This document shows, in pieces, positions 16,927-51,540 of a stretch of DNA of 64,000 nucleotides. A model generated the notes under the pieces. That model searched no databases and was not told the DNA's origin. It saw nothing but the letters and a program-made list of their open reading frames with translations. The stretch's first letter is position 1. Each line of letters begins with the position of its first letter. The position numbers and the translations under genes are program-made. The DNA comes from Hoeflea phototrophica DFL-43 (lineage in GTDB: Bacteria > Pseudomonadota > Alphaproteobacteria > Rhizobiales > Rhizobiaceae): contig NZ_CM002917.1 in the NCBI RefSeq assembly GCF_000154705.2, positions 2,727,633 through 2,791,632 of the forward strand, written 5' to 3'.

Positions 16927-17021
16927 GTCCCAGCGTCAGGACGGCAGGGTGAGCGCGCGCAAAGCCTCACAGGAGACACTCAACAGCGAGCAACAAGACG
17001 TCGCGTTGCACGTTTGTCGAA

Positions 17022-17858
17022 TCAGGCCTGGTTCCGCTTTCCCGGCTTCTTTTTGCGCCCGGATTTTGGATCACCCATCTTGTACAAATACAATTTGGTC
17101 TTGCGCCGGTCCGGCAGCTCCCAGACTTCATCCGGTTCAACGCCCGGCACCGGAAAGCTGTTGGACACCAGCAGACTGCCAGGCTTCATCTCGGCCTTGG
17201 CTTTTTCATAGAGTGCCGGCATCGGTTCGGTCGACAGGAAGGCATAGACCAGGTCTTCCTGCGCCAGGCCCGTGGACCAGATGTCCTGCCGCAGGATCCG
17301 GCCGCGGCCGGTCAATCTCGACAGGACCGCAGACAACAGCCAGACCATCGGCGCGGTTTCAACGCCACGCGCAACCCTGCCCTCACCATCAAGCGCGCGC
17401 ACCACGCCACCAAGGCCAGAACCAAGATCGATAAACCGCGTTCCACCACGCTGCCGCATCAACGACAAAAGCGCATCCGCGGTTCTCTTGTTGCTGAGAT
17501 AAAGCGGTACCCGCTCCCGCGCGGTGTTGGAGAAGAAGAGATAAAGCGCAACAAACGCCACCCCAAACGGCAAGGCTGGCAAATCACCTGCATCGAGCGC
17601 GAGGGTGAGAGCGGCGGGAAAGCAAAACCCGATCCAGATCCACCAGACCGGAAGACCGATCAGCCAGGACAACAGGGCAGCAGCGATGCATTGCGCCGCA
17701 AGCCCACCCCAGAACAGGATCTGCACATTGAACGCCGACTCGCCCACCCAACCGGCAAGCACCATGCCACCGGCCAGGACGATCAGGCCGGCCGCGATCT
17801 GCGCAACCAGCGCGCCGAGAATTGGGTAGGCACGAACTGCTTTCGCCACCATTTTCAT
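17022..17858 (-). CDS. Membrane-anchored SAM methyltransferase-like protein
   Basis: The protein has 278 aa. The first 110 residues hold about four hydrophobic helices. The remainder is a class I methyltransferase-like domain with motif I as FIDLGSGLGGVVRALD, an acidic residue after the second strand (RGVETAP), and LVYAFLSTEPMPALYEKAKAEM downstream. The C-terminus is a lysine-rich tail (SGRKKKPGKRN). The methyl acceptor is unknown. It is transcribed in the same direction as dusA, 34 bp downstream of it. Confidence 0.7.
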   Translation of the reverse strand: MKMVAKAVRAYPILGALVAQIAAGLIVLAGGMVLAGWVGESAFNVQILFWGGLAAQCIAAALLSWLIGLPVWWIWIGFCFPAALTLALDAGDLPALPFGVAFVALYLFFSNTARERVPLYLSNKRTADALLSLMRQRGGTRFIDLGSGLGGVVRALDGEGRVARGVETAPMVWLLSAVLSRLTGRGRILRQDIWSTGLAQEDLVYAFLSTEPMPALYEKAKAEMKPGSLLVSNSFPVPGVEPDEVWELPDRRKTKLYLYKMGDPKSGRKKKPGKRNQA

Positions 17859-17892
17859 ACCCTGTCAGGTGATCCTATCATGCGACAAACGA

Positions 17893-18903
17893 TCAGGCTG
17901 CTACGGCCAAGTCGTTGAAATCGATCTCGTCAAAAGCTCTTGCAATGACGTCCGGTCCGGCACCCGGCTTCGTGCTTTCAGTGGACAGGATCTGCCGGAA
18001 CCGCCGCGCGCCACGCACCCCCTGAAACAGTCCGACCATATGCCGTGTGACATGATTGAGCCGTCCGCCGGAAGCGACATGCGCATCCGCATGAGCCATC
18101 ATGGCCTCACACACCGCGCGCCAATCCACAGCTGCAACGTCATCACCATAGATCAGCCGGTCAACCCCCGTAAGCATCTGTGCATTGTGGTAGGCGGCGC
18201 GGCCGATCATGACCCCGTCAACATGATTCAAATGCTCAAGCGCCTGATTCAGATCTTCAACACCACCGTTTAAACCGATGAAGACATTGGGATAATCCTG
18301 CTTGAGCCGATACACCCGATCATAATCCAGCGGCGGAACATCACGGTTCTCCTTGGGCGACAGACCTTCAAGCCAGGCCTTGCGCGCATGCACCCAGATC
18401 GCATCCGCTCCAACCTGAATGACCGCTTCAGTCAGCGCCGAAAGGGCGATTTCGGGATCCTGCTCATCCACACCAATGCGGCATTTGACGGTGACCGGCA
18501 CATCACCGCTGGCGGCTTTCATGGCCGCGATGCAGCGCGCCACAAGATCCGGTTCGCGCATCAGGCAGGCACCAAAAGTGCCCGACTGAACCCGGTCGGA
18601 CGGGCAGCCGACATTGAGATTGATTTCATCATAACCGAACCCGCCAGCGATCCGCACCGCCTCGGCCAGCTTCTGCGGATCGGACCCGCCAAGCTGAAGC
18701 GCCACCGGATGCTCGACCGCGTCAAACCCCAACAGCCGCTCACGATCACCATGGATCGCTGCGTCCGCTACAACCATCTCGGTGTAAAGCAGAGCATGCC
18801 GCGTCAACTGCCGATGGAGAAACCGGCAATGCCGGTCCGTCCAATCCATCATGGGGGCGATTGCGAAGATTTTCTCTTTATTTTTCAATGATTTGTGATA
18901 CAT
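17893..18903 (-). CDS. dusA: tRNA-dihydrouridine(20/20a) synthase, hybrid 5' end
   Basis: The protein has 336 aa. It is an FMN- and NADPH-dependent enzyme that reduces uridine 20/20a in the tRNA D-loop. Motifs include IAPMMDWTDRHCRFL, LLYTEMVVADAA, ALQLGGSDP, NLNVGCPSDRVQ with catalytic Cys100, and FIGLNGGVEDL. The first 13 or so codons (MYHKSLKNKEKIF) differ from those of the displaced original start near 51580. They appear to be supplied, together with the promoter, by the integrated element. There is no good ribosome site before the ATG at 18903. The conserved IAPMMDWT codons form the attachment core at 18836-18863. Confidence 0.93.
   Translation of the reverse strand: MYHKSLKNKEKIFAIAPMMDWTDRHCRFLHRQLTRHALLYTEMVVADAAIHGDRERLLGFDAVEHPVALQLGGSDPQKLAEAVRIAGGFGYDEINLNVGCPSDRVQSGTFGACLMREPDLVARCIAAMKAASGDVPVTVKCRIGVDEQDPEIALSALTEAVIQVGADAIWVHARKAWLEGLSPKENRDVPPLDYDRVYRLKQDYPNVFIGLNGGVEDLNQALEHLNHVDGVMIGRAAYHNAQMLTGVDRLIYGDDVAAVDWRAVCEAMMAHADAHVASGGRLNHVTRHMVGLFQGVRGARRFRQILSTESTKPGAGPDVIARAFDEIDFNDLAVAA
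18836..18863. repeat. Left attachment site core (inside dusA)
   Basis: TCCGTCCAATCCATCATGGG starts the 28-bp core, which recurs at 51513-51540 with three mismatches (positions 9, 20 and 27). On the minus strand it encodes IAPMMDWT of DusA. The identical runs of 8 and 11 bp flank the likely crossover. Confidence 0.85.
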
Positions 18904-18920
18904 TGCAAGGAGATCATTTC

Positions 18921-18974
18921 ATGAACGGCGTGCACTCAAATGGACGAATTTGCACGCTTTTGTACCCGTTTTGA
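18921..18974 (+). CDS. Possible 17-codon leader peptide before the integrase
   Basis: ATG at 18921 is preceded by AAGGAG with 8-nt spacing, a better ribosome site than that of many genes here. The frame reads MNGVHSNGRICTLLYPF then stops at 18974, 45 bp before the integrase start. It overlaps the TGCACG repeat region. It may be a translated leader or simply chance; no homology can be claimed. Confidence 0.3.
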   Translation: MNGVHSNGRICTLLYPF

Positions 18975-18982
18975 TCGCTATG

Positions 18983-19001
18983 TGCACGTTTTTTGCACGC
19001 T
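18983..19001. repeat. Left 19-bp arm repeat (TGCACG pair)
   Basis: TGCACGTTTTTTGCACGCT occurs here and identically at 51462-51480, just inside the two island ends. Further TGCACG/GTGCAC units lie at about 18931, 18951 and 19012. Clustered short repeats near an attachment core are typical of integrase arm-type binding sites; that role is inferred. Confidence 0.65.
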
Positions 19002-19019
19002 CACAAGGGAGTGCACGAC

Positions 19020-20114
19020 ATGGCCACAATCTTCAAGACTCGGCAGGGACATTGGCGAGCTCAAGTCAGACGGAAGGGAAAATATGTATCCAATACGTTT
19101 CGTCTCAAGACACAAGCCCATGAATGGGTTCGCGATATAGAGCACCTGATTGACATCGGCGGCGAACCAAAAAGGCAATCGGGACGCAGGGCGCAGACGG
19201 TCGGAGCTTTGGTAGACCTCCACCTTGAAGACCTTAAGGAGGTCGGTCGTGCAATTCGCCGCTCCAAGATGGCCGTTATGGAAGCACTCAAGCGGGACCT
19301 GGGCACTGTTCGGATTGATCGACTGGACCGTGCCCGGCTTATCCAATACGGCAAGCAGCGCGCCGCAGAAGGCGCCGGCCCGGTAACGTTGGCGGTAGAT
19401 CTTTCCTATCTCCGCACGGTTCTGACCCATGCCGCTGCGGTCCATGGCGTCCATGTGGACACAGAGAGCATTCGCCTGGCGCGTACCGCCCTAGCCCGCC
19501 TTGGCCTCGTGGGCAGGTCACACGAACGCGACAGACGCCCGACCGAAGACGAAATCGATGCCCTGCTCGGCTACTTCGACAACAAGACCAACATGATCAT
19601 CCCCATGGGCCGGATCGTCCGTTTCGCAATCGCCACCGCCATGCGGCAGGAGGAGGTCTGCAAGATCGAATGGTCTGATGTCGATCTGTCCAAACGTGTG
19701 GTGACGATCAGGAACAGGAAGGACCCGCGCAACAAGGAAGGCAACCACCAAAAGGTTCCTTTGCTGAACTTGACCGGGATTGATGCTTGGCAGTTGCTTC
19801 TGGAGCAGAAAGTACTGACCGGCGGAATCGGCCGATGTTTTCCGTATCACTCCAAATCCGTGGGAACAGCTTTCAGGCGCGCGCGAAAGCACCTGGGAAT
19901 CGAGGACCTCAGATTCCACGACCTTCGCCACGAAGCTACGAGCAGGCTGTTCGAGGCTGGCCTTTCAATCGAACGCGTCGCCCTGGTGACTGGCCACAAA
20001 GATTGGAAGATGCTGCGTCGGTACACTCATCTCAAGCCAGAAGACCTGCACAAGGAGCAGACCAAACCGCAACCATCGGAAACTGAGTTTCTGGCTGAAC
20101 TCGCGTCCCGATAA
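19020..20114 (+). CDS. Tyrosine recombinase / site-specific integrase (dusA-type)
   Basis: The protein has 364 aa. It has an N-terminal arm-binding stretch (IFKTRQGHWRAQVRRKGKYVSNTF) and a SAM-like core-binding domain at about 60-160. The catalytic domain carries Arg209 (TAMRQEE), Lys in RKDPRNKEG, His300 and Arg303 in RFHDLRHEATSRLF, His326 in VTGHKDW, and nucleophile Tyr335 in RRYTHL. It would excise and integrate the island at dusA. The ATG at 19020 is preferred over 18993 because GGGAG lies nine bases upstream. It is transcribed away from dusA. Its 3' end is strongly similar to the remnant at 31375-31492. Confidence 0.93.
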   Translation: MATIFKTRQGHWRAQVRRKGKYVSNTFRLKTQAHEWVRDIEHLIDIGGEPKRQSGRRAQTVGALVDLHLEDLKEVGRAIRRSKMAVMEALKRDLGTVRIDRLDRARLIQYGKQRAAEGAGPVTLAVDLSYLRTVLTHAAAVHGVHVDTESIRLARTALARLGLVGRSHERDRRPTEDEIDALLGYFDNKTNMIIPMGRIVRFAIATAMRQEEVCKIEWSDVDLSKRVVTIRNRKDPRNKEGNHQKVPLLNLTGIDAWQLLLEQKVLTGGIGRCFPYHSKSVGTAFRRARKHLGIEDLRFHDLRHEATSRLFEAGLSIERVALVTGHKDWKMLRRYTHLKPEDLHKEQTKPQPSETEFLAELASR

Positions 20115-20419
20115 CTGTTTCTCGCCAAACCGGCTTCTCGTCAGCAAAAGCCCGACTGTGTTTCGGCGTGCAGAATATGTTCATTTAATCAAAAACTAAG
20201 GTATCTTCGTTGTATAAAGGTAACATCACCCGCTCCAAACATCTTCCATAGCACCCAGAACCAAAATGGGCGGCTCGGTTTTCTGGGCGCAGCCTGCAAT
20301 TGTCTGCCGATAACCCTGCGGGGCATTTCCATAGTGTCGGCGCATGGCCGCAGGTGGAAGCTGGGCCGACCACCACCTTGAACTGATGCACTTGCGCTCT
20401 ATCCGGGATAAACCCTGCG
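20115..20419. other. Intergenic, convergent integrase/PPTase ends
   Basis: This is 305 bp between the stop of the integrase and the stop of the minus-strand phosphopantetheinyl transferase gene. It contains an AT-rich patch around 20176-20220. No convincing ORF, hairpin with a T-run, or RNA gene was seen. Confidence 0.5.
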
Positions 20420-21253
20420 TCATGTCGCAACGAACTCCCCTAGCCATGGCAGTCTGGCGGCGCCCGCGTCTACGGTAACCGGCTCGGCCCCCTCCAATGC
20501 GATAGCGCCGACATGGCCCGGCGACACAGAAAACCTCTGAAAGAAATAAGGCGTGGGAATAGTCTGACCAGAAGGCTGCCGTTGCAGGCATGCTGGGGTC
20601 AGCGCCACTGCGAAACTGACGGGATCCAATGAAAAGCCTTGCCCGGTCGCTTTCATGTATGCTTCCTTCATTGTCCAGAAATCATAGAACCGCATCGAAC
20701 GCAGCGACGGCGGCGCTGCGATGACATCGGCACGCTCGGACGGCGCAAAGAAGCGTTCCATGACCTCGAAGGGGGCGGCGCGCGCGATCCATTCGATATC
20801 AACGCCGACCTCCCGATCCAGCGTCATCGCAACGGCCGCCAGATCGTGAGTGTGGCTCAGGTTGATGCAGACACGTGCAATGCCCGGCGGGCAAACCGGC
20901 TCAGGTTTGCCGTTCGGTCCATGGGTGAACTGCAATTCTCTTGGATCCCGACCGGTCACATGCGCCAGCATCCCTCGGAGAAGGGCATGGGCAGCCACAT
21001 ATGTTCGTCTGTGGGACGCGTCATGAAACCGGGCCGCTTTGGCTTGTTCCGTTTCAGACAGAAGCCCGGCCAATTGCGTCTGCTGCATATCATCAAGCCC
21101 GCCGATCGCCAACCAACGCAAAACCACATGGTTTGTCTTCAATTCAAAGTCGGCGCGCCCTTTTGGGAAGCCAACGCAGGACATTGGGCGCTCTAGCACT
21201 GTTGCGTTGTGCGCGAGCCCGTCGCCTTTCCCCTGTATCCGCGACGTTTCCAT
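20420..21253 (-). CDS. Sfp-type 4'-phosphopantetheinyl transferase
   Basis: The protein has 277 aa. It attaches the phosphopantetheine arm of CoA to the serine of a carrier domain. The second half has the canonical motifs: INLSHTHDLAAVA, GVDIEW (Asp152, Glu154 bind Mg), and FYDFWTMKEAYMKATGQG (Lys196, Glu197). The size and motif spacing are those of secondary-metabolism PPTases, not AcpS. The ATG at 21253 has GGAG 11 nt upstream and comes 26 nt after the JmjC gene stop. It is the last gene of the four-gene operon; its obvious substrate is Ser598 of the Pls-like synthetase. Confidence 0.92.
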   Translation of the reverse strand: METSRIQGKGDGLAHNATVLERPMSCVGFPKGRADFELKTNHVVLRWLAIGGLDDMQQTQLAGLLSETEQAKAARFHDASHRRTYVAAHALLRGMLAHVTGRDPRELQFTHGPNGKPEPVCPPGIARVCINLSHTHDLAAVAMTLDREVGVDIEWIARAAPFEVMERFFAPSERADVIAAPPSLRSMRFYDFWTMKEAYMKATGQGFSLDPVSFAVALTPACLQRQPSGQTIPTPYFFQRFSVSPGHVGAIALEGAEPVTVDAGAARLPWLGEFVAT

Positions 21254-21279
21254 GATCAAACCGTCTCCGGCCTCGGGGT

Positions 21280-22191
21280 TCAGGTTGTCGCGAAATGAAG
21301 CTTGGCAATTTCGGACGCGGAAAGGGCTGGATTGCCGGTGGCGCGATGGAAATACTGCAGGATCTCGAATTCGGAGTCGCTTTCCCATGCACCGTTCAGA
21401 TATTCTTGGAACTTTGCCGACCCGCGCTGATGCACGAAATTCCAGGTGATCGAGACCGAGTCCTCGATGGCCAGAACGTCGTGCAGCCACCCGTTCGGGA
21501 TGTAGATCATCTCACCGGGCTCGACGATGCCATGAAAATCGGGTTCAACCGAAAGCGCATCGATCTGGTCCTCGCGGACGTCGATGAAGCCGCCGAAGGA
21601 AGAGCCATCCTTTGCCTTGCTCAATTCCGCCGCCCGCTCTGGCCGATAGAGCGCGGCCTCCTTGGTGCCGTAGAACTGGCAGACCACAGCATCACTGCAG
21701 AAGGGATCGCGGTGCATGCGTGTGCGCGCCCCGCGCGCTGCCACCAGAAGGCCCCTGTACGGGAAGGCGTCCAAAACAGGATCGGTCCCTGCCCCGGCGC
21801 CACTCACAGGCACGACCAATTCGTTTCCGGGCAGACATTGGGGTCTTCGCCAAGCAGAGGCAACGCGGGCAAATGCCTCGTCGCCCCAGGCAAATTCGAC
21901 ATCGCGCAACTTATTGTACCAGCGGATATAAGGCGTGTCGTCTTCCATATCGCCATCAAGACCAAACCAGGTGTCGACGTAATCCTCCAGCGTCTGAACA
22001 TCATCGAGTTCGAAAAGCGAGCCGTACACCAGTGCGGTCAGATCGCCAATCCGCCGGGTCAACGCGTCGGGCTTCCATTCGTCTGCATCGAAATCCAATC
22101 CAGTTACAACCACGGGCTGGTTTCCGCGAATGTACGTTTCAACGAATTTCTCCACCGAGGGCATTGAGACTTTCTCGATCGGCTGTGTCAT
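21280..22191 (-). CDS. JmjC/cupin-8 family Fe(II)/2-oxoglutarate oxygenase-like protein
   Basis: The protein has 303 aa. The cupin-like core shows the iron triad His160-X-Asp162 in RTRMHRDPFCSD and His237 in IPNGWLHDVLAIEDSVSITWN. PYRGLLVAARGARTRMH and VEPGEMIYIPNGWLHDV match the cupin-8/JmjC family wording. Members hydroxylate protein side chains or carrier-bound amino acids using 2-oxoglutarate and oxygen. The ATG at 22191 overlaps the synthetase stop by ATGA, so the two are coupled. This suggests it modifies the synthetase's substrate or polymer (inference). A frame extending upstream to 22434 lies inside the synthetase gene and is rejected. Confidence 0.85.
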   Translation of the reverse strand: MTQPIEKVSMPSVEKFVETYIRGNQPVVVTGLDFDADEWKPDALTRRIGDLTALVYGSLFELDDVQTLEDYVDTWFGLDGDMEDDTPYIRWYNKLRDVEFAWGDEAFARVASAWRRPQCLPGNELVVPVSGAGAGTDPVLDAFPYRGLLVAARGARTRMHRDPFCSDAVVCQFYGTKEAALYRPERAAELSKAKDGSSFGGFIDVREDQIDALSVEPDFHGIVEPGEMIYIPNGWLHDVLAIEDSVSITWNFVHQRGSAKFQEYLNGAWESDSEFEILQYFHRATGNPALSASEIAKLHFATT

Positions 22192-25100
22192 TGCAGCGCT
22201 CCTTTCTTCATGCTTACTGCGATATCTTTTCCGGTTACGTCCCGGGCCGGGTTGCCAATCCACCGTGTTCCCTCTTCGACCAACGTACCTTTCATCAAGA
22301 AGGCGTCGGCATCGAGTGATCCACCCTGCTGCATTTCGGCCCCGTAGTGGACAAAGCCCCCAACACCGACGGTGCAGCGCCGGCCAAGCCGGATGCGATC
22401 GGACTTGAACGTGCCATCCTCCAGCGAGTGGCATTGCAGGACAGACCGGTAGTTCAGGGTCGTGCCATCGCCGATTTCGGTCAGGCTGGGCTCGGTCATG
22501 CCAGCGCCATCGTCAAAGACCCCACGGCCAACCAACATACCCTGCAACCTGAGGAAGAAGGGTTTCATTGGGGTGCCGTTGAAGACCACGAGGAAGGCAT
22601 TGTAGTTCAGCTTCCAGAACCGTTCATGCGCCCAGAATTTCGGATCATATAGCGAGCAATATTGCGGCTCTAAGCGTTTGAACCTGCTGACAATCCGTTC
22701 GCACAAGATCGAAAACACGGCCCCGACGAAAACGAACGCGACACCCGCGGCGGTCAACGCAAGAGATGTGAAGACCGCTGTGGCCGACCCGAAGACCGCG
22801 AACCCCAAAAGGACAAGACCAAGGCCAATGGCCGTCAACAACCACGAGCGCAACAGGTAAAGGCCCAAGGTCACCAGGTTCGAGCGCAACTTCATGCGCA
22901 GACGCGCTTCAAAAATGCCTGGCATCTTGAAATGGTCGAACCTGCGATCGCGTACGACGGAACGCGGGATCTCGAAAGCGGGCGAACCGAGCAGGCCCAC
23001 TTCACGCCGCTCCGGCCCGTCGATCGGGATCGCGGCCTTGGTCGCAATCAGGCAATTCGGCCCAAGTTTCGAATCCGCCGGATAATGCACGACATTCCCC
23101 ACATACGTGTCAGGGGGCATGGAGACCTGTCGCAGGCGAAACGCCGTGGCCGAGGTTTCCATGTTCATCATCAGCAGACCGTCCGAAACCAAGGTGTTGC
23201 GGCCAAAGGAGCACAAAAACGGTGAATGGTGCCGCTGATCCACCCCGAAATTGGATCCGTTCTGAGTGGATTTCGACAGATCATAGCCCACAAGGGACAG
23301 CCAATGAACAATCATGGAGCTGTCACCGAAGAGTGTATTGAGCAGGCGGTTGTTGCTGAGCCGCGCAATGGTTCGGGACAGCTCATATTGCAGACCATAA
23401 AGCGGGTGCGACACTTCGGGCGCGACGAACAGGTTCAAGAGCCGCGGGACGCTGAGGATCACCGCAATAGCGGCCAACAGTCCCCCGAAATAGATCTGCG
23501 CTGCCGCCAAGCCCAAGCTAGCCAAGGCGCCCATCACGCCCGCACCGAACGATGTGCTTGTCATCCCCAGACCTAAGTTGGCCACAAGCATGGCCAAGAT
23601 GGTCGTCGACGGCAAGCTTACAAGGAACAGGACCAACAGGCTCGTTGAAGTGAAGCTCAGTATACGAAGCCTCGAAACCGACCGTGGTATGACACGGTTA
23701 AAATTTGAAGAGCTAGGCTCCGCCGGAGAGCCTTGCCAGACCTCACCTGACGGGATCATTTGCCCCTGAAGCAGAGCCGAGGTCGTGCCAAGTTGGCTGC
23801 CATCGCCGATCTCGGTGTTGATATCAAGAACAGTCGCTTCACACAAAAGAACGCCCGAGCCGATGCTGACCCGACCCGGATAGATATAGCCGTTGTCGGA
23901 TGTGTACCCCTGGAAAACGGCATCTTGCCGTATGACGGTGTTCGAGCCGACCGAAATCAGGTCCGTACAGACCGGGGGCAGCGACATGATCACCGTATCG
24001 CGACCAACCTGCATGCCAAGCAGACGCAGAAACACTGAGTAAACTGGCGTTCCAATAAACAGGACAAGTGGGTTCGAGCGGATTGCGCGTTGTGCTGTCC
24101 AAAACCTCAGGTAGCCAAGGCTGTAAACACGGATGGGCTCTGTCGTAAACCGCCCGACAGCGATCCATTTGACCGCGATCAGGCCGAGGGAAGTACCAAT
24201 GAAAAGCCCTGCCGCGGCGATCACCGTGCGAATGTAAAGATCGAGCATGCCGGTCGCGACGACAGCCCACTCGTACCCCAGGACCGCACCGTATGTGACC
24301 GCAAAGATCGAAGCCGCGTAAATGACAGATTGCGCGAAACCTGTAGCTATGCGGGCTGCAAGAGACGGGATATGCCGCTCAGCCGCATGCGCGTCGCTGG
24401 TCCGTTTTGTCGGTTGGGACACCACCTTCATCTGCGCCCCATATGGCGACACTTTCTCAGACCTGGTCTTTTTAGGCCGGGCATCATCACTCAGCCTGTC
24501 CAGCTCGATCGCCAAATCAGCTATGGTCGTATGCTCATAAAGCTTGCGCATGGTGATGCGGCGAATGCCAAGCTGTTTGCGAATGGTGGTCACGTAACTG
24601 GCAAGTTTCAAAGAGTCCGCACCAAGCTCATCAAAGAAATCCGCCTCGACCGAGACACTTTCCAAATCCAGAGTATTGGCCAAAAGATGCGCCAGCTCGG
24701 CTTCCATCTCCGTACGCGGTTCAACCACCTCAACTGCATTGGCAACGAAGCGAGTCATCGACGGTTTGGGCAGGGCTCTGCGATCGACCTTGTCGCTTGC
24801 AAGCATGGGAATGCTTTCCAAACGCTCGTAGAAGACGGGCACCATATAATCTGGCAGCGCGGCTCGCAGCACCGCGTCCACGGCATCCACGTCGACTGTC
24901 CCACCCGGTTGATCGGACGTAAGGTACGCGACAAGAGCCTTATCCTGTCCCTCTGGCGTTTGCGGCTCGACAACAGCCTGACCGACGCCGGGAACCCCAC
25001 GGGCCAGGGCCTCGATCTCGCCAAGCTCAATGCGATAGCCGCGGATCTTGACCTGTGTGTCGATGCGCCCCAGATACTTTATCTCGCCCGCCTCTGTGAA

Positions 25101-26405
25101 ACGGCCAAGATCGCCTGTGTGATAGATGCAGCCGCCTGGATTGTCGGCAAGTCCGTAGGTATCTGGGCTAAGCGCCTTCGCTGTTTGATCGGGACGGTTT
25201 ACATACCCATCGAAAACGGCGGGGCCGGCGATGCAGACCTCGCCGGGAATTCCCTCTCCCAGGGCTTCGCCTGTATCGGGATCAATCACCAGAACGGAAT
25301 ATGTCGGCAAAGGTCCGCCAATTGTTATTGGTTTGCCAGGCTTAAGAACTGACCAGGTCGCGGTCACAGTCGTCTCGGTCGGACCATAGACATTCAGAAT
25401 GCGCCGCCCGTCTGCGAACCACGGCTGGATCAGGTCCTGCGGGCAGGCCTCCCCAGAGACAATCAACAAGCGCAAAAGCGGCAGCTCAGACTTGATTGTG
25501 CCTAGAAGCGTTGGCACAGCGCACATCGCCGTAACGCGGTACTCAACAAGAAAGCTATGCAGATCATCGCCAACCAACTTGCCCTCGGGCGGCGCGGGAA
25601 CAAGCGTGGCTCTGCTCAAAAGCGGCACCCAGATTTCCTCGAACGAATAGTCGAACGCAACGGTAAGGCTCTGATAAACCCGGTCAGTGGGTCGGTAGCC
25701 ATAGTGGGTCGCCGCGACATCCAGGAAAGTGCTGATCTGAGACTGTCGGATTGGAACGCCTTTAGGCTTCCCGGTTGTCCCCGAGGTGTAGATCACATAG
25801 GCAAGGGGGTCGCCCTGCCCCGACGCGGGTGCAAATGACCGCGCCGAGCACTTTGAAATCTCGGGAAAATGCGAATCCAAAGCCAGAACGAGCATCTTTT
25901 CCGATGAAACCAGCGCTTCGTATTGGCTAAGCGTCACCACGGCATCGACCGCGCTATCCTCAAGAATGAATGCGATCCGATCCATCGGAAACGCAGCGTC
26001 GAGCGGGACAAAGGCCGCTTCGAGTTTGGACAGCGCAAGAACCGTGGCGTAAAGATCAATCGACCGCTCCAATAGCAAAGCCACGATACTGCCGCGACCG
26101 ACCCCCCGGGATTGCAGGAACCTCGCCATGCGATTGGCCCGGGACTGGAGATCTGAATAGCTGTACGACGCTTCGCCATAGTCGACAGCGACCTGCCGCC
26201 CGGCGTCTCGGCCCATGCTTTTGCAGACCCTGTCAAAGGCAAGGTGCAGACGTGCCGGCGCCGTTGTCAGGTCATATCCATCCCCATCACTGACCAGGAC
26301 ATAACCTTTGCCAGAAGGGCCCTGATCAAGTCGCCATGAGGGTTGAAAATCCTCGACATGTGCCGGCACCCGCGCCTTGCGGGACCTAAGAAGCGTTCCG
26401 ATCAT
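22188..26405 (-). CDS. Pls-like poly(amino acid) synthetase (A-T-membrane NRPS)
   Basis: The protein has 1405 aa. Residues about 50-545 are an adenylation domain: YTSGTTGKPKG at 206-216, FDYSFEE with Asp252 positioned to bind the alpha-amino group, NVYGPTETTVTATW, YHTGDLGR, KIRGYRIELGEIE, and the A10 lysine in SDKVDRRALPK. A carrier domain follows with Ser598 in LGADSL. The rest alternates three pairs of membrane helices (about 686-750, 918-998, 1180-1235) with three left-handed beta-helix/acyltransferase-like domains (about 790-895, 1050-1150, 1270-1390). There is no condensation or thioesterase domain. This A-T-six-helix-three-tandem-domain order is that of epsilon-poly-L-lysine synthetase and relatives, which join one amino acid iteratively at the inner membrane. 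Its neighbour makes diaminobutyrate, the likely monomer. It overlaps both neighbours by ATGA. Confidence 0.88.
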   Translation of the reverse strand: MIGTLLRSRKARVPAHVEDFQPSWRLDQGPSGKGYVLVSDGDGYDLTTAPARLHLAFDRVCKSMGRDAGRQVAVDYGEASYSYSDLQSRANRMARFLQSRGVGRGSIVALLLERSIDLYATVLALSKLEAAFVPLDAAFPMDRIAFILEDSAVDAVVTLSQYEALVSSEKMLVLALDSHFPEISKCSARSFAPASGQGDPLAYVIYTSGTTGKPKGVPIRQSQISTFLDVAATHYGYRPTDRVYQSLTVAFDYSFEEIWVPLLSRATLVPAPPEGKLVGDDLHSFLVEYRVTAMCAVPTLLGTIKSELPLLRLLIVSGEACPQDLIQPWFADGRRILNVYGPTETTVTATWSVLKPGKPITIGGPLPTYSVLVIDPDTGEALGEGIPGEVCIAGPAVFDGYVNRPDQTAKALSPDTYGLADNPGGCIYHTGDLGRFTEAGEIKYLGRIDTQVKIRGYRIELGEIEALARGVPGVGQAVVEPQTPEGQDKALVAYLTSDQPGGTVDVDAVDAVLRAALPDYMVPVFYERLESIPMLASDKVDRRALPKPSMTRFVANAVEVVEPRTEMEAELAHLLANTLDLESVSVEADFFDELGADSLKLASYVTTIRKQLGIRRITMRKLYEHTTIADLAIELDRLSDDARPKKTRSEKVSPYGAQMKVVSQPTKRTSDAHAAERHIPSLAARIATGFAQSVIYAASIFAVTYGAVLGYEWAVVATGMLDLYIRTVIAAAGLFIGTSLGLIAVKWIAVGRFTTEPIRVYSLGYLRFWTAQRAIRSNPLVLFIGTPVYSVFLRLLGMQVGRDTVIMSLPPVCTDLISVGSNTVIRQDAVFQGYTSDNGYIYPGRVSIGSGVLLCEATVLDINTEIGDGSQLGTTSALLQGQMIPSGEVWQGSPAEPSSSNFNRVIPRSVSRLRILSFTSTSLLVLFLVSLPSTTILAMLVANLGLGMTSTSFGAGVMGALASLGLAAAQIYFGGLLAAIAVILSVPRLLNLFVAPEVSHPLYGLQYELSRTIARLSNNRLLNTLFGDSSMIVHWLSLVGYDLSKSTQNGSNFGVDQRHHSPFLCSFGRNTLVSDGLLMMNMETSATAFRLRQVSMPPDTYVGNVVHYPADSKLGPNCLIATKAAIPIDGPERREVGLLGSPAFEIPRSVVRDRRFDHFKMPGIFEARLRMKLRSNLVTLGLYLLRSWLLTAIGLGLVLLGFAVFGSATAVFTSLALTAAGVAFVFVGAVFSILCERIVSRFKRLEPQYCSLYDPKFWAHERFWKLNYNAFLVVFNGTPMKPFFLRLQGMLVGRGVFDDGAGMTEPSLTEIGDGTTLNYRSVLQCHSLEDGTFKSDRIRLGRRCTVGVGGFVHYGAEMQQGGSLDADAFLMKGTLVEEGTRWIGNPARDVTGKDIAVSMKKGALQ

Positions 26406-27691
26406 GACAGTCTCCGGGTCTCGGCCTCAACGGCGTCTGACAGGATCGCAAGACCTTGGCTGAGAACTTCGTCCGGGGTGGTCAACGGGGCCAAAACCTT
26501 GACCACTTCACCATAAGAGCCTGACGTTTCGATGATCAGGCCGTTTTCAAAACAACGCTTGGAGATCGCCGAGGCGCGCTCGCCCGTACCTACGTCCAGC
26601 CCCAAGAACATGCCCCGTCCCTTGACCCGGTACTCGGGCGTAAGCCTCGCCAGGCTCCAGAGAGTTTGATAGACTAACTGCCCACGACGCTTGACGTCTG
26701 CCGTCAGGTTGCCGTTTGACCAGAATTTCCGGATCGTCTCGGCAGCCGTCACAAAGGCCATGCAATTGCCGCGGAACGTCCCGTTGTGTTCGCCCGGCAG
26801 CCATTGATCATATTCCGGTTTCATCAAAACCAGAGACATTGGAAGACCAATGCCCGACAATGACTTGGACAATGTGATAATGTCCGGCTCGATCCCGAAC
26901 TCTTCGAAGCTGAAGAAGCTGCCGGTGCGACCGCAGCCCGCCTGAATGTCGTCAACGATCAGGAGCGCACCATGCTTGCGCGCAACCTCTGCAATACTGC
27001 GCACCCAGTCCTTTGACGCGGCGTTTAAGCCGCCCTCGCCCTGAACCGTTTCCAAAAGGAACGCAGCAGGCTTGTCGAAACCGCTTGAGGGATCGCTAAG
27101 CGATCTGTCGAGCAGATCAGCCGTATCGATGTGCACGCCGAAGAAGCCATCGAAATGCGCGCGCATGACATTCGTCAATGGCACATGGGCTCCCGCACGG
27201 TGATGCGAATTTCCTGTTGCTGCCAAAGAGCCAAGCGAAACCCCGTGAAACCCGCCGGTGAATGCAACAATCTGCGAGCGGCCAGTGACTTTGCGCACCA
27301 GCTTCATTGCGGCCTCTACGGCATTGGTCCCAGTCGGCCCTGCAAATTGTAACCGATAAGAAAGGGAACGCGGGCGAAGTATCTTGTGCGCGAAGGTTTC
27401 GATAAAACCTTCCTTGGCCTGCGTATGAAGATCAAGGCCAAGCGTCACGCCGTTAAAGCCGATATACTCCTTCAGGCAGTCAACCAGGTCGGGGTCGTTG
27501 TGACCATAGTTCAAAGCCGAGCAGCCAGCCAGAAAGTCGATGTATTTCCGACCGTTCGACGCAACCATATGGCTGCCCAAAGCGCTGACGAATGTTGTTG
27601 TGAAGTTCCTGCAATAGCTGCGGACTTCCGACTCGATTTTTGTGGGGTTTGGCATTTTCGGCGGCTGGGTCGAAACAAGTTGAACGTTCAT
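26402..27691 (-). CDS. EctB-like diaminobutyrate--2-oxoglutarate aminotransferase
   Basis: The protein has 429 aa, class III PLP aminotransferase. It follows EctB closely: FLAGCSALNYGHNDP, QFAGPTGTNAVEAAMKLVRK, FTGGFHGVSLGSLAATGN, LETVQGEGG, LIVDDIQAGCGRTGSFFSFEE (PLP Asp), ITLSKSLSGIGLPMSLV with Schiff-base Lys276, and GEHNGTFRGN. It would convert L-aspartate-4-semialdehyde and glutamate to L-2,4-diaminobutyrate. No EctA or EctC is nearby, so the product is not going to ectoine here. The ATG at 27691 has AGGAG; an upstream start at 27799 lacks support. It is the first gene of the operon and overlaps the synthetase by ATGA. Confidence 0.9.
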   Translation of the reverse strand: MNVQLVSTQPPKMPNPTKIESEVRSYCRNFTTTFVSALGSHMVASNGRKYIDFLAGCSALNYGHNDPDLVDCLKEYIGFNGVTLGLDLHTQAKEGFIETFAHKILRPRSLSYRLQFAGPTGTNAVEAAMKLVRKVTGRSQIVAFTGGFHGVSLGSLAATGNSHHRAGAHVPLTNVMRAHFDGFFGVHIDTADLLDRSLSDPSSGFDKPAAFLLETVQGEGGLNAASKDWVRSIAEVARKHGALLIVDDIQAGCGRTGSFFSFEEFGIEPDIITLSKSLSGIGLPMSLVLMKPEYDQWLPGEHNGTFRGNCMAFVTAAETIRKFWSNGNLTADVKRRGQLVYQTLWSLARLTPEYRVKGRGMFLGLDVGTGERASAISKRCFENGLIIETSGSYGEVVKVLAPLTTPDEVLSQGLAILSDAVEAETRRLS

Positions 27692-27828
27692 GACTTTCTC
27701 CTGGACACGTGCGCGTTGGCTGCGACGTAACCATTTGACAGTCGATGGGGCGGCCTGCGTATCGGCGACAGTCCGGTCTTTTTTCGGACCATTCGCCACC
27801 GAAGGTCTGACGATATGCCGGAGAGTTA

Positions 27829-27854
27829 GGACCTTAGTCCCAAGTAGAAACTTG
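27829..27854. promoter_or_regulatory. Candidate regulator site upstream of the synthetase operon
   Basis: Two adjacent inverted repeats, GGAC-CTTA-GTCC (27829-27840) and CAAGT-AGAA-ACTTG (27841-27854), lie about 140-165 bp upstream of the aminotransferase start, in the gap after the response regulator gene. They could bind the adjacent NarL-type regulator; this is only positional inference. Confidence 0.35.
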
Positions 27855-27872
27855 CCACAAGCAAAATAGCAT

Positions 27873-27918
27873 GAGCCGCCCAGTGGGCAGGCTCGGAAAC
27901 CGGCCTGCCCGACGGCTC
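27873..27918 (-). terminator. Hairpin at the end of the response regulator gene
   Basis: GAGCCG (27873) pairs with CGGCTC (27913) and GGGCAGGC (27885) with GCCTGCCC (27903). This gives a long stem that overlaps the regulator's stop codon, with a short T-rich stretch downstream on the minus strand. It should separate the two-component operon from the synthetase operon. Confidence 0.55.
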
Positions 27919-28570
27919 AGACCGAATCAGAAAGACCTCGGTCGCGCGCAAGCAGCGCAGCTTCCACACGGTTGCGAACATGCAGCTTTTGCAGAATGTT
28001 CGTCATGTAGTGCTTGATGGTTTTTTCCTGCAAATCAAGTGCCGCGCCCACTTCCTTGTTGCTTAGCCCGTTCGCCACCAATTGAAGGATCTGCTCTTCC
28101 CTACGGGTCAGATTATCGATAGGGTGTTCTGGCTTTTTGGTCGTGTTGTTTGTGGCCACGGTCAAAAGGCGCACGGCGAGATCGGGTGAGATATAAGATT
28201 GGCCAGACGCAACACTGGACAAGGCCTCGACCAGCTGTGCGGCACCAATCCCCTTGAGGATGTAACCCGAGGCCCCCGCCTCCAAGGCATCACTCACGTT
28301 CTCATCTGCCTCCGAAACGGTCAGCATCACGATCTTGACAGTCGGGAAGGTTGCGTTGATTCGCCGCGCCGCGTTTATGCCGCCCCCTGGCATAGAGATA
28401 TCAAGGCAAACAATGTCGGGCAGATGCGTTTCGACAAGGTCAAAGGCATCCTCCGCGCACCCACACTCACCCACGACTTCAAAGAAATCCGCCTCGTTCA
28501 GGCTTCTTGCCACGCCTTCCCGGAACAGCGGATGGTCATCAACCACGACAATTGTATAAACATTACTCAT
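27917..28570 (-). CDS. NarL/FixJ-type response regulator
   Basis: The protein has 217 aa. The receiver domain has the acidic pair in VVVDDHP, phospho-accepting Asp57 in IVCLDISMPG, Thr in MLTVSEAD, and Lys in YILKG. The C-terminal LuxR-type helix-turn-helix is LTRREEQILQLVANGLSNKEVGAALDLQEKTIKHYMTNILQKL. It overlaps the kinase gene by 8 bp, so the pair is translated together. It sits directly upstream of the synthetase operon on the same strand and is the obvious candidate for controlling it, though direct evidence is lacking. Confidence 0.93.
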   Translation of the reverse strand: MSNVYTIVVVDDHPLFREGVARSLNEADFFEVVGECGCAEDAFDLVETHLPDIVCLDISMPGGGINAARRINATFPTVKIVMLTVSEADENVSDALEAGASGYILKGIGAAQLVEALSSVASGQSYISPDLAVRLLTVATNNTTKKPEHPIDNLTRREEQILQLVANGLSNKEVGAALDLQEKTIKHYMTNILQKLHVRNRVEAALLARDRGLSDSV

Positions 28571-29984
28571 CGCTGTTCTTTTCGGTTTCGGCCAACGTCA
28601 TGACAAGCCGAGTCCCTCTACCAGGGGCCGTATCAATCGTGAACGTTCCGCCTTGGCTTTCGACACGCTCACGCAAACCACGCAAGCCCAGTCCAACATT
28701 CTTTCGTTTTTCAAGCGGATCAAACCCCGGCCCCTGATCTACGACCGCGACCGTTAGGCGACCAGATTCAAAGCGGCTTTGGACCCTCTGTCCAACCCCG
28801 TCCGCATGGCGAAAGGCGTTGTTCAGTGCCTCCTGCACGAACCGAAAGATACAGATGCGGGCCGCGTTATCAAATCCCCTGCCCGGCTGGCCTTCAAACA
28901 ACAGCTCCACGGTGGTCTGTGTCCTCTTTTCATGGGCCTGAGCGGCCATGCTAATCACCTCGTAGACGTCTTTCTGATCGATTTCCGGCAAACTCAACCC
29001 GCGACACACATTCCGTATTTCCGACAAGGCATCGGACAAGGCCGTTTTAATCCGCGAGGCCTCAACCTCTTGCGACGCGTCGGTCTGGAGCCCGTCCAAA
29101 CGCAAAGATGCAAAGGCGACGGACTGCGCCGCGCCATCGTGGAGTTCTGCGCTGATCCGTTTCAGATACTGTTCATTCAGTTCACTGACACCCGATGACG
29201 CAGCTTGCATGCGGCGATGCAAGGCATCGTTCTGGGCCGAAAACCGGGACAGTTGTTCATACCGCATGTGCAAGGCCTTCTTCTGTCGCTCGATCACATG
29301 GCTGCCTTTGCGGACAATTCCAAAAAGCAGTGCGAACATGGAAATACTCACGCCAGCAACCAGCAGCCATGCCTCCAGCCGAGCGCGCAGAAGATCCCGT
29401 TCAAGTTCGGTTGCAATTTGATAGAACTCGGCCACGGCGATAATCTCGCCCGTATAGATCGAATGGATCGGATTATAAACTTCAAGCAGTGGCAAATCCA
29501 GCGAACGCTCCGCTGCATCCTCATGGTCGTTGAGATCATCGAATGCCGCGCTCAACTCGCCTTGCCAAGCCGCTGCCAAAGGCGGACTAGGCTCAAACCG
29601 TTGCCCGACTATTCCGGGGTCAGTGGCAAAAGAGACCAGGCCTCCATCGCGCCAAATCTTTACCGACAGAATGCGTTCCGAAAGGGGCGGCTTTTCGAAA
29701 ATCTCCCGGAGGGTGTCTTCGGTATCCTGCGACAGGGCCGCATTGCTGCCAAGTTGCTGCGAGAGTGGCGCAACAAAGCTTTCCATGAACAAAGCCGTCG
29801 ATATCGCCGAATTCCGCACGACGGATTCCTCGATCTCTCGACTTGTCCACCACCCAAGGATCACCATACCGATCAACATGACAATACTGCCCGCCGCAGC
29901 AAAGCGCGAATGCAAAGAAAGGTCACCACCAAAAGCGATAGTGCCAGGGGGTCTTTCCAATTGTTCGATCGCTGGTCCGTACAC
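28563..29984 (-). CDS. NarX/DegS-type sensor histidine kinase
   Basis: The protein has 473 aa. Two membrane helices (about 28-45 and 204-224) flank a periplasmic domain of some 155 residues with Cache-like spacing. A coiled coil leads to the HisKA_3 box KRISAELHDGAAQSVAF (His282), then the ATPase domain with RFVQEALNNAFRHADG, VVDQGPGFDP, and GLGLRGLRERVESQGG. The start is GTG at 29984, preceded by GGGAGG. The periplasmic ligand is unknown. It is co-transcribed with the NarL-type regulator. Confidence 0.9.
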   Translation of the reverse strand: MYGPAIEQLERPPGTIAFGGDLSLHSRFAAAGSIVMLIGMVILGWWTSREIEESVVRNSAISTALFMESFVAPLSQQLGSNAALSQDTEDTLREIFEKPPLSERILSVKIWRDGGLVSFATDPGIVGQRFEPSPPLAAAWQGELSAAFDDLNDHEDAAERSLDLPLLEVYNPIHSIYTGEIIAVAEFYQIATELERDLLRARLEAWLLVAGVSISMFALLFGIVRKGSHVIERQKKALHMRYEQLSRFSAQNDALHRRMQAASSGVSELNEQYLKRISAELHDGAAQSVAFASLRLDGLQTDASQEVEASRIKTALSDALSEIRNVCRGLSLPEIDQKDVYEVISMAAQAHEKRTQTTVELLFEGQPGRGFDNAARICIFRFVQEALNNAFRHADGVGQRVQSRFESGRLTVAVVDQGPGFDPLEKRKNVGLGLRGLRERVESQGGTFTIDTAPGRGTRLVMTLAETEKNSDE

Positions 29985-30180
29985 CGAAGTATATCCTCCC
30001 CCGACTTTTCATCACGTTTTACACTTGCGATCATCGGACTTAAGTCCAGACATAAAAAGAATTTTTGCGCTAAAGTTTGCCTCGCAGCATCTTGCCGCCG
30101 GTTCTCACACTCCAACTGAGGCCAAGCTAGCGAAGCCAATTCTTTCTGGCGTGCCCCCATCGGGTGGTCCGGTTTGATTG

Positions 30181-30996
30181 TTAGTGCATCGTTGGCCTCT
30201 GGTCCAACGGAACGATGCTTTCCGGCGCGGGTGGGCGGTAGCCCAGAGCGCTGTGCGGCCTGATCGTGTTGTAGTGGTTGCGCCATTTTTCGATCAGGAT
30301 TTGTGCCTCTCTTAGGCTGTAGAAGATTTCACCGTTGAGCAGCTCGTCCCGGAACCTGGCGTTGAAGCTTTCGCAGTATCCGTTCGCCCATGGCGATCCG
30401 GGCTTAATGTAGGCTGTCTTAGCGCCGACCGCTCCAATCCAATCCCGCACCTTCTGAGCAATGAACTCGGGGCCATTGTCGGATCTTATATATTCCGGTG
30501 GCCCGCGCAGGATGAACAGGTCCGTCAGCGCGTCCAGCACGTCGGTTGAGTTAAGTTTGCGATCGACGCGGATCATAAGCGCCTCCCTGGTGTATTCATC
30601 GATGATGTTCAGTGTCCGATAGACGCGACCATCGGCGGTGCGATCCTGCACGAAGTCATAGGACCAGACATGGTTGGGCCGCTCAGGCCGCAGACGCACG
30701 CAGGAGCCATCGTTCAGCCAGAGCCGTCCTTTCTTCTTCTGCTTTTGCGGGACCTTCAGCCCTTCACGTCGCCAGATGCGCTCGACCCGCTTGTGGTTCA
30801 CCTGCCAGCCTGCATTGTTCAGCATGCCGGTGACCATGCGGTAGCCATAGCGCCCATATTGATCGGCCAGTTCGATGATGTCATCGGTCAGCCGCTCTTC
30901 ATCGGCCCGGCCCTGGGGCACCTTGCGTTGCGTGGACCGGTGCTGCCCGAGCGTGCGGCAGGCGCGGCGTTCCGATACGCCAAGCTCCTGCCGCAC
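30181..30996 (-). CDS. IS3-family transposase OrfB (integrase core)
   Basis: The ORF is 271 codons from the first in-frame start, but the frame is open upstream through the end of orfA (SPSRRRKCIDHV precedes it). The functional product is therefore probably an OrfAB fusion made by a -1 frameshift. It has the HTH-like ERRACRTLGQHRSTQR and the rve DDE triad in HVWSYDFVQD, YIRSDNGPEF, and NGYCESFNARFRDELL. This wording is that of the IS407 group. The reading frame appears intact. Confidence 0.92.
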   Translation of the reverse strand: MRQELGVSERRACRTLGQHRSTQRKVPQGRADEERLTDDIIELADQYGRYGYRMVTGMLNNAGWQVNHKRVERIWRREGLKVPQKQKKKGRLWLNDGSCVRLRPERPNHVWSYDFVQDRTADGRVYRTLNIIDEYTREALMIRVDRKLNSTDVLDALTDLFILRGPPEYIRSDNGPEFIAQKVRDWIGAVGAKTAYIKPGSPWANGYCESFNARFRDELLNGEIFYSLREAQILIEKWRNHYNTIRPHSALGYRPPAPESIVPLDQRPTMH

Positions 30997-31028
30997 ATGG
31001 TCGATGCACTTGCGGCGACGTGAAGGGC

Positions 31029-31307
31029 TCAGAAGTTTCCCCGTGCCGCCTCGGTCAGAATGAGCTTATCCAGCGTCAGGTCAGACACGGCCCGCCGCAG
31101 CCGCTGGTTCTCTTTCTCCAGTTCCTTCAGTCGCGCAAGCTGAGACCTGCCCATCCCGCCATAGAGCTTCCGCAACCTGTAGAACGTCTGCTGCGTGACG
31201 CCGATCTGGCGCACGGCTTCCGCAACCGTCATTCCTTGTCCTTGCAGCACTTCTACCTGCCGAAGCTTCGATACGATCTCTTCGGGCTTCTCTCGTTTCC
31301 CAGCCAT
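31029..31307 (-). CDS. IS3-family transposase OrfA
   Basis: The protein has 92 aa. It has the transposase_8 helix-turn-helix (EEIVSKLRQVEVLQGQGMTVAEAVRQIGVTQQTFYRLRKLYGG) followed by a leucine-rich coiled coil (LARLKELEKENQRLRRAVSDL). It supplies DNA binding for the IS and precedes orfB with overlapping frames. Intact. Confidence 0.9.
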   Translation of the reverse strand: MAGKREKPEEIVSKLRQVEVLQGQGMTVAEAVRQIGVTQQTFYRLRKLYGGMGRSQLARLKELEKENQRLRRAVSDLTLDKLILTEAARGNF

Positions 31308-31374
31308 CGCTGATCCTCCAATTACGGGACAAACCTATCCCAGTTGGTGGACCACTTTCAGGGGGCTACTCCAG

Positions 31375-31492
31375 TAGGACTGGAACACCATCGATACCTT
31401 ACACGCATCTGAAACCGGAAGACCTGCACAAGGCGCAGACCAAATCCCAGCTCTCTGAAACAGACTTCCTGGCTGAGCTTACTTTGAGGTGA
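31375..31492 (+). pseudogene. 3' remnant of a second dusA-type integrase
   Basis: Translation from about 31402 gives YTHLKPEDLHKAQTKSQL then SETDFLAELTLR and a stop at 31490-31492. This closely parallels the C-terminus of the complete integrase (YTHLKPEDLHKEQTKPQPSETEFLAELASR split over the same positions). Upstream, GACTGGAAC matches its DWK codons but with a one-base shift. Homology stops at the IS right end, so the rest of the gene was lost at that border. It has the same orientation as the complete integrase. Confidence 0.85.
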
Positions 31493-32108
31493 TTTCAGCG
31501 CCTTACTCACCCAAGGCTTCGCCCAAAGCCGCGCAGTCAAGGCCGCGCCAGCTTCAACCGGCGCGCCGCGAAGCGGGCAACGCGCCTTGACGGAAGGCTT
31601 GGCGATGCAAACTCGCAGAAGGGGCTGCAATCCAAAGTCAGAAAGCAGGCACCAAATTTAGCCAGAATTTTCAAACGCCTAAATCGCCTGAAACACCAAC
31701 GAAAAATGAATGGGATCAAAAAGCCTTTTGAAAACAATGCACTGACCCGACCTTGGTGCCAAACCTTTATCTTGCCCTCCTAATCGGGCCTCTAACCCGC
31801 TGACCAATCACAACAAATCCACATCCATCCATCATTTCGGATACTTTCGAAACAGACCTAGGATTCTTCGCGTTCACCCGATCAAACGCATTGAGCACTG
31901 ATCAGGAGACAACCCCAACGGCCAGTCCCGCTTGCTTTCATTTTCAGATGTGACACCTTAAACCATGAAACAGTCGGGGATAGCTGCCGATTGATTTGCA
32001 TCGCCGAAATGCATATCGAATTAGGCCTTCGGTTCGAGCTCTTTGGATCCGTACCGTTCATGGTTCGCCATATCGAGCAATCTCAAAACCAGCATCCAGG
32101 GAACTCAA
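31493..32108. other. Non-coding interval after the integrase remnant
   Basis: This is about 616 bp with no ORF showing plausible coding character on either strand, and no RNA gene or clear repeat. It is AT-richer than the surrounding genes in its middle part. It may be decayed element sequence. Confidence 0.4.
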
Positions 32109-32444
32109 ATGATCACTCGCTACGCGTTGTTTAAGGGTCACGTTGCACCCAGCCAATTCGATCAATTCAAGCAGGTAGTGATGGAAGATCTGCTGCCGAC
32201 CTGGCTGGTCTATCCCGGGGTTAGTGAAGTGCGCGTCAGCTTCGGATACGGCAAGGACGATGCAGCACCTGAATGTCCATTGATCCTTGCCATGGATTTT
32301 CCCGATCAACACGCGCTTGACAAAGCACTTGAAAGTCAAGAACGGTTGGCGAGCCGTGCTGAAACCCAACGCGTGCTGCCGGGCCTGTTCGATGGGCAGA
32401 TTTTTCATTATCTGACTGAAACCGAGACCAGGCGCGGAAACTGA
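32109..32444 (+). CDS. Small dimeric alpha/beta-barrel-like protein, unknown function
   Basis: The protein has 111 aa. The pattern (strand MITRYALFKGHV, helix FDQFKQVVMEDLLPTW, strand GVSEVRVSFGYG, acidic LILAMDFPDQHALDKALESQER, then FHYLTETE) resembles ferredoxin-like EthD/Dabb/antibiotic-monooxygenase proteins. I do not recognise the family firmly. The ATG at 32109 has AGGGA upstream. It lies just before the operator region of the catabolic operon and could belong to that module, but no operator is visible upstream of it. Confidence 0.6.
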   Translation: MITRYALFKGHVAPSQFDQFKQVVMEDLLPTWLVYPGVSEVRVSFGYGKDDAAPECPLILAMDFPDQHALDKALESQERLASRAETQRVLPGLFDGQIFHYLTETETRRGN

Positions 32445-32597: not shown

Positions 32598-32617
32598 TTA
32601 GCAGTGGGAAAAGAATT

Positions 32618-35133: not shown

Positions 35134-35136
35134 GTC

Positions 35137-37970: not shown

Positions 37971-37979
37971 ACATTGCTT

Positions 37980-51461: not shown

Positions 51462-51480
51462 TGCACGTTTTTTGCACGCT
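51462..51480. repeat. Right 19-bp arm repeat
   Basis: TGCACGTTTTTTGCACGCT, identical to 18983-19001. It lies 32 bp inside the right attachment core, in a position expected for an integrase arm site. Confidence 0.65.
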
Positions 51481-51512: not shown

Positions 51513-51540
51513 TCCGTCCAGTCCATCATGGGTGCGATGG
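51513..51540. repeat. Right attachment site core
   Basis: TCCGTCCAGTCCATCATGGG starts the 28-bp core, which differs from the left core at three positions. It marks the right end of the island; sequence beyond it is the original upstream region of dusA. Confidence 0.85.

Follow-up and report, generated by a model that had tools for sequence, protein, structure and literature searches.

Gene content of the locus

We analysed a stretch of 64,000 nt from Hoeflea phototrophica DFL-43 (GCF_000154705.2, NZ_CM002917.1, positions 2,727,633-2,791,632, forward strand), hereafter called the window. A check of the open reading frames returned an operon on the minus strand at 20420-27691 with four open genes: dat, pls, jmjC and a gene for a phosphopantetheinyl transferase (PPTase) (Table 1). 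All four reading frames lie where the original prediction had placed them and, as it had described, the first three genes overlap by ATGA (dat with pls, and pls with jmjC); the PPTase gene starts 27 nt past the jmjC stop, without such an overlap. We refined the start of jmjC, as the program-made reading frame of 384 aa begins too far upstream. The Sfp-type assignment of the PPTase also held, with 60 bits for the ACPS family PF01648 against a cut-off of 25 bits and 46 bits, again above the cut-off, for TIGR00556; the score against the HetI equivalog, 118 bits, lies below the cut-off of that model. PPTase-like matches were observed near the synthetase in several other Pls loci (e.g. L085, L089 and L091).

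The LuxR-type response regulator encoded upstream of the operon on the same strand is possibly the regulator of the operon, and the sensor histidine kinase is probably its partner. In a scan of positions 17000-34000 against Rfam no match reached the gathering score. Promoter-like sites numbered 3, compared to 4.2 in shuffles, and terminator-like sites 15, compared to 11.6 (sd 3.6) in shuffles, neither count being informative.

Table 1. Genes and sequence features of the operon and of the element at dusA (positions in the window)
Feature	Positions	Strand	Remarks
dat, EctB-like L-2,4-diaminobutyrate:2-oxoglutarate aminotransferase	26402..27691	-	ATG 27691, 429 aa; TIGR02407
pls, Pls/PosA-family synthetase	22188..26405	-	ATG 26405, 1405 aa; TIGR02353
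jmjC, JmjC/Cupin_8 Fe(II)/2-oxoglutarate oxygenase	21280..22191	-	ATG 22191, 303 aa; Cupin_8, JmjC_2
Sfp-type 4'-phosphopantetheinyl transferase	20420..21253	-	ATG 21253, 277 aa; PF01648, TIGR00556
LuxR-type response regulator	27917..28570	-	PF00072, PF00196
Sensor histidine kinase	28563..29984	-	PF07730, PF02518
dusA, insertion target	17893..18903	-	NF008774, 503 bits, above cut-off
Tyrosine integrase, adjoining the dusA start	18993..20114	+	PF00589
att-like core, 5' end of dusA (codons for APMMDWT)	18836..18861	.	24/26 repeat of 51513-51538
att-like core, other end	51513..51538	.	24/26 repeat; in frame with second dusA N-terminus (VPGRISIAPMMDWT)
Left end repeat	18983..19001	.	19/19 identity with 51462-51480
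Right end repeat	51462..51480	.	19/19 identity with 18983-19001

The element at dusA

Judged from its ends, the operon is carried on an element of ~32.7 kb that is integrated at dusA. The integrase at the 5' end of dusA and the att-like repeats that flank the insert bear out what had been proposed for this region, and the element looks mobile by its sequence. A dusA-like N-terminus is in frame with each copy of the att-like core, and the first ~15 codons of the dusA gene are unlike those at the other att copy. The 19-base end repeat, of which the window holds no further copy at up to 4 mismatches, is possibly an arm site of the integrase. A regular-expression search recovered the dusA N-terminus from 5 of 10 relatives; these N-termini are of two types, one like that now present in the window (L044 and L046) and one loosely like that at 51513 (L051-L053), and other elements at dusA could be behind them. 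In five genomes of the same genus no relative of the window integrase was found upstream of dusA, and the stretch upstream of dusA in these genomes shows no synteny with the right flank of the element (51539-64000), so that neighbouring insertions or a rearrangement are possible. Searches of 17 further genomes of this genus at E 1e-20 gave no Pls match. The GC content is 0.557-0.585 in 1-kb bins over 20001-28000, close to the window mean of 0.589, and composition alone therefore gives no foreign mark.

An IS3-family transposase gene (30181-30996) lies between the regulator pair and the remaining element. This remainder (32798-51188) resembles a set for the oxidation of sugars or sugar acids, with genes for a CoA-transferase, an aldehyde dehydrogenase, ABC transporter parts, two GMC oxidoreductases, a LacI regulator, a PfkB kinase and a MocA-type oxidoreductase.

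The aminotransferase and the synthetase

The dat product scored 572 bits against TIGR02407, the EctB equivalog (cut-off 552.2 bits), and its nearest PDB relatives are diaminobutyrate-2-oxoglutarate transaminases (462, 460 and 445 bits), the next class following at 179 bits. An EctB-like, diaminobutyrate-forming enzyme was indeed what had been predicted, and with these nearest relatives it is not placed outside the diaminobutyrate-forming group. It is the only TIGR02407 copy above the cut-off in the genome; for ectoine synthase (PF06339) the genome gave no match, and the control genomes were likewise silent.

The synthetase begins with an adenylation (A) domain (PF00501), followed by a carrier (T) domain (PF00550) with the carrier Ser598 in GADSL. 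Its C-terminal half carries the expected Pls similarity, the domain scoring 540.8 bits against TIGR02353 (cut-off 423.1 bits). In a structure model of the C-terminal 765 residues (pLDDT 73.9, pTM 0.81, the third beta part being of low confidence) we observed three pairs of long helices (42-109, 272-351 and 524-602), each pair with strands after it, in agreement with the three helix-pair/beta units that were predicted to follow A-T. Foldseek searches with this model gave nothing below E 0.001 (best E 0.09), and the weak matches include hexapeptide acyltransferases.

The substrate pocket reads DYECISVVTK (D252, Y253, E256, C295, I315, S317, V339, V347, T348 and K539). These code positions were assigned by GrsA numbering and are consistent with the PosA residues of PMC10522769. 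Asp at code position 1 together with Glu at position 3 indicates that the substrate is basic, and a bulky residue at position 2 that it is short (PMC10522769, in excerpt); the pocket thus does not clearly match a non-basic amino acid. At position 2 poly-2,3-diaminopropionate (poly-DAP) and poly-2,4-diaminobutyrate (poly-DAB) enzymes have Phe (same excerpts); the window has Tyr, not Phe, and relatives linked to a diaminobutyrate aminotransferase (DAT) have either Phe or Tyr. The prediction of poly-DAB or a hydroxylated variant is supported, DAB being favoured by the gene context, and a pathway of the poly-DAB type is likely.

Pocket codes and aminotransferase linkage in related loci

The original prediction considered a synthetase of this kind to be remarkable outside actinomycetes, which was an overstatement: 35 of 397 genomes in the window's order, that of the window among them, have a match to the Pls C-terminal domain at E 1e-30, and 21 plasmid records (including Shinella, Phyllobacterium and Rhizobium) have one as well. 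Pls proteins are common in this order and a dat gene beside a poly-DAB synthetase is known already; both are ordinary.

For a comparison of pocket codes with gene neighbourhoods we assembled 43 Pls loci, composed of the flanks of 33 of the 36 other places in the order, eight further loci, G037 and the window; two Pls fragments in G214 were left out of the set. Four loci without a readable code (L027, L032, L077 and L078) were dropped, none of which showed a DAT, L027 beginning close to the synthetase, and 39 loci were kept. Of the 22 loci with Phe or Tyr at position 2 and Ser at position 6, 21 have a DAT no more than 5 kb from the C-terminal match. The sole exception is L042, the locus of G037, which has pls-jmjC and the same code type and no DAT above the cut-off (genome 98% complete, 8% contaminated). 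None of the 10 loci with Phe at position 2 and Gly at position 6 has a DAT within this distance, nor do any of the 7 loci with other codes. Fisher's test of the Ser-6 against the Gly-6 group gives p 1.7e-7, and since the tree holds one independent Ser/Gly contrast only, this is a strong linkage and not a proven rule. Ser versus Gly at code position 6 is nevertheless a candidate rule for separating the DAT-linked from the other synthetases with Phe at position 2.

Ten loci (L075, L076, L079-L084, L087 and L090) form a compact Pls clade of this order with the code DFEALG(T/S)VT and no DAT; in L079 the synthetase gene is followed at ~2.8 kb by a gene resembling lysine-2,3-aminomutase, with a PPTase and a transposase gene in between. 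Other domain arrangements were seen as well. Two Pls/PosA proteins from the subclade of the window synthetase, P0016 and P0018 (1625 and 1664 aa), have an additional TraX domain (PF05857), and in P0088, P0263, P0271 and P0274 a PPTase domain (PF01648) is part of the Pls/PosA chain. Pls-like proteins with carrier and membrane part and no A domain listed are found among the rows of 800-970 aa, P0113 and P0114 being examples; several of them are named Streptomyces.

The JmjC oxygenase and its two genomic settings

The JmjC gene and its conserved linkage to Pls are the new part of this work, which the original prediction had left undeveloped. The protein scored 53 bits against Cupin_8 (cut-off 27) and 26 against JmjC_2 (cut-off 22); with 22 bits it stays below the cut-off of PF02373 (JmjC), which is 24. 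Its HxD...H triad (H160, D162 and H237) and the 2-oxoglutarate-binding K177 are intact. The fold is like that of JMJD5 and JMJD6, JMJD5 being nearest by VIA-align and JMJD6, which the PDB names a lysyl hydroxylase, the top match in Foldseek. JMJD5 is an arginyl C3-hydroxylase (PMC10246557, in excerpt), and JMJD7 hydroxylates C3 of lysyl residues (excerpts of PMC9001643 and PMC11400632).

Genes of a discrete JmjC family are neighbours of this Pls clade in actinobacteria as well as in alpha- and gammaproteobacteria. The search for the operon block in other genomes that had been suggested at the outset found dat-pls-jmjC in the same order in Crenothrix (L026) and in an uncultured actinobacterium (L033), and pls-jmjC in G037. 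Two members of the JmjC-linked clade, L028 and L031, have dat and pls with no JmjC gene in the ~10 kb downstream. In L031 a multicopper oxidase gene (8870-10495) overlaps the end of pls, at the place where relatives have jmjC. Among the matches listed, 31 of the 59 closest Pls rows pair with a JmjC row, compared to none of the next 59, rows being paired by contigs of exactly equal size. In a JmjC tree of 122 rows the basal split is weakly supported (74); all paired rows but P0239, 30 of 31, group together on one side of it. An unpaired branch of 33 rows, again among the matches listed, includes G1446 as well as Pseudoalteromonas, Teredinibacter and Lysobacter. When an 85% majority is required on each side of the tree, a single alignment column distinguishes the two sides, and the chemistry is therefore probably shared by both. 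At E 1e-20 the JmjC protein matched 1 of 385 genomes in a sample of its class and 1 of 398 in a sample of its phylum, in both cases only its own, and plasmids gave no match. With P0202 as query at the same threshold we found 0 of 78 genomes in the class of G1000 and 1 of 369 (G1446) in the class of G1050, and with P0209, 2 of 109 in the order of G1446.

The genomic context of the branch outside the Pls loci was taken from two members, G1446 and G1467. In G1446, jmjC overlaps the end of a gene for a bimodular non-ribosomal peptide synthetase (NRPS) as well as the beginning of one for an ABC transporter; the only DAT of this genome above the cut-off lies ahead of the first NRPS gene, and downstream of jmjC there is a PPTase gene. 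G1467, of the same genus, has the order NRPS-jmjC-ABC on a contig of 9.8 kb that ends before any DAT position. The whole G1446 cluster (L063/L064, G1446:C2 about 822400-842100) encodes a DAT, NRPSs of 2140 and 2461 aa, the JmjC protein, an ABC transporter, a MaoC-like protein, a PPTase and a Rieske oxygenase. Its NRPS codes are DIWEMTADDK, DIWELTADVK, DLTKFGHIGK and DIESVGTIIK, for which no match was found in the published literature searched.

Hydroxylated DAB is found in known peptides: the alterins of Pseudoalteromonas contain three hydroxy-DAB residues (PMC7764243) and odilorhabdins contain Dab(betaOH) (PMC8749412), and a term search of both papers met no named oxygenase. The link between Pseudoalteromonas and alterins is drawn by genus and not via the cluster of a producer. 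Our search for hydroxylated DAB in literature outside subscription journals gave alterins only. As both JmjC settings have a DAT, DAB is their shared denominator, and from this we take DAB hydroxylation as the most likely function of the oxygenase and poly(gamma-(3-hydroxy-)DAB) as the most likely window product.

Proposed pathway and its alternatives

Taken together, we assign a probability of roughly 0.6 to the operon being a complete pathway of its own, with a cationic homopolymer of (3-hydroxy-)L-2,4-diaminobutyrate, joined by isopeptide bonds, as product. The EctB-like enzyme would aminate aspartate semialdehyde to L-DAB, as its family suggests. The A domain would then adenylate DAB and load it onto the carrier, which the PPTase of the operon would prime, and the membrane-bound C-terminal half, by its likeness to Pls and PosA, would link the DAB units via the side-chain amine. 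The DAB unit would be hydroxylated by the JmjC oxygenase, probably at C3 and once it has been activated. Judged from gene linkage, the balance tips slightly towards hydroxylation of the DAB unit; C3 is our best guess for the carbon by analogy to the JMJD enzymes, an assignment kept tentative since Foldseek puts JMJD6 first and VIA-align JMJD5. By comparison with known polymers the product is likely to be an antimicrobial or surface-active polycation.

Might the product instead be unmodified gamma-poly-L-DAB, as it is in Streptomyces celluloflavus, and might the JmjC enzyme modify a host protein, perhaps in self-protection or in regulation? We consider this unlikely and still worth weighing. 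JmjC relatives with solved structure and known function mostly act on proteins (TYW5 acts on tRNA), and dat-pls loci without JmjC exist, with the code DFECLSAVTK common to JmjC-free loci (L028, L031 and L091) and the JmjC-linked L026. However, jmjC overlaps pls by ATGA, and the same JmjC family stands directly behind a modular NRPS near a DAT, for which self-protection from a polycation is a poorer common cause. The shared code bears equally on the timing of the oxygenase step. Free-standing amino acid hydroxylases are common, and the JmjC enzyme might hydroxylate free DAB so that the synthetase polymerises 3-hydroxy-DAB, a variant of the proposed pathway that is compatible with it. That loci with and without jmjC have the same code argues that unmodified DAB is activated and hydroxylation follows later, which makes this variant rather unlikely.

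We give little credence to a polymer built from a different small basic amino acid (2,3-diaminopropionate or ornithine, for instance), with the aminotransferase serving something else. It draws on the finding that poly-DAP enzymes are difficult to distinguish from poly-DAB enzymes on sequence grounds (PMC10522769, in excerpt) and that the A domain of a poly-DAP synthetase activates DAB too, more weakly (PMC4668381, in excerpt), so that the two pockets overlap; G037, without a DAT, also fits it. Against this, dat and pls overlap by ATGA, a DAT is near 21 of 22 Ser-6 loci compared to 0 of 10 Gly-6 loci, and enzymes of the ornithine type have Met at code position 2 (excerpts of PMC10522769).

Returning to the hydroxylated poly-DAB, it is about an even bet that the JmjC family hydroxylates DAB at C3 for two kinds of assembly line unrelated to each other, modular NRPSs and Pls synthetases, that the window product is poly(gamma-3-hydroxy-L-DAB) and that a dat-pls-jmjC cassette, here on a dusA element, has spread between phyla. 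We found no description of a hydroxylated polymer of the poly-DAB type in the literature searched and, outside subscription journals, no paper that joins a Pls synthetase with an oxygenase, a term search of PMC10522769 included. The natural cationic homopolymers listed in excerpts of PMC9606270 and PMC10522769 are built of diamino acids without a hydroxyl. If the proposed reading is true, the linked oxygenase would add a tailored polymer to these, in which the hydroxyl may alter charge spacing, metal binding or stability, and the JmjC family would be a candidate for the beta-hydroxy-DAB step in peptides such as alterins.

Comparison with known systems

The closest likeness is to the gamma-poly-L-DAB synthetase PldA, whose cluster combines a Pls-type synthetase with a DAB transaminase gene, dat, and also has ask (PMC8117764, in excerpt). 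The window operon differs in its JmjC and PPTase genes, its location on a dusA element and its alphaproteobacterial order, and no aspartate kinase was found among the window genes scanned with Pfam. The delta-poly-L-ornithine synthetase PosA, characterised from a gammaproteobacterium, Acinetobacter baumannii, has the same terminal domain and equally spaced Asp and Glu in the pocket, but has Met at code position 2 and forms a single-gene operon without co-transcribed neighbours (excerpts of PMC10522769).

The epsilon-poly-L-lysine synthetase Pls of Streptomyces shows the same domain order, with a related A domain (PDB 7wew, 236 bits). In contrast to the monomer proposed here, lysine to our knowledge needs no dedicated aminotransferase. 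At code position 2 the Streptomyces enzyme, unlike that of the window, has Ala (PMC10522769, in excerpt). The window JmjC protein resembles JMJD5, JMJD6 and JMJD7 in fold, in the HxD...H triad and in their basic substrates; these enzymes are eukaryotic, act on proteins and share ~16-20% identity with it. Alterins/ogipeptins and odilorhabdins contain the same predicted monomer, beta-hydroxy-DAB, in mixed peptides and not in homopolymers, and the unpaired sister branch of the JmjC family is present in Pseudoalteromonas rhizosphaerae, a member of the genus that makes alterins.
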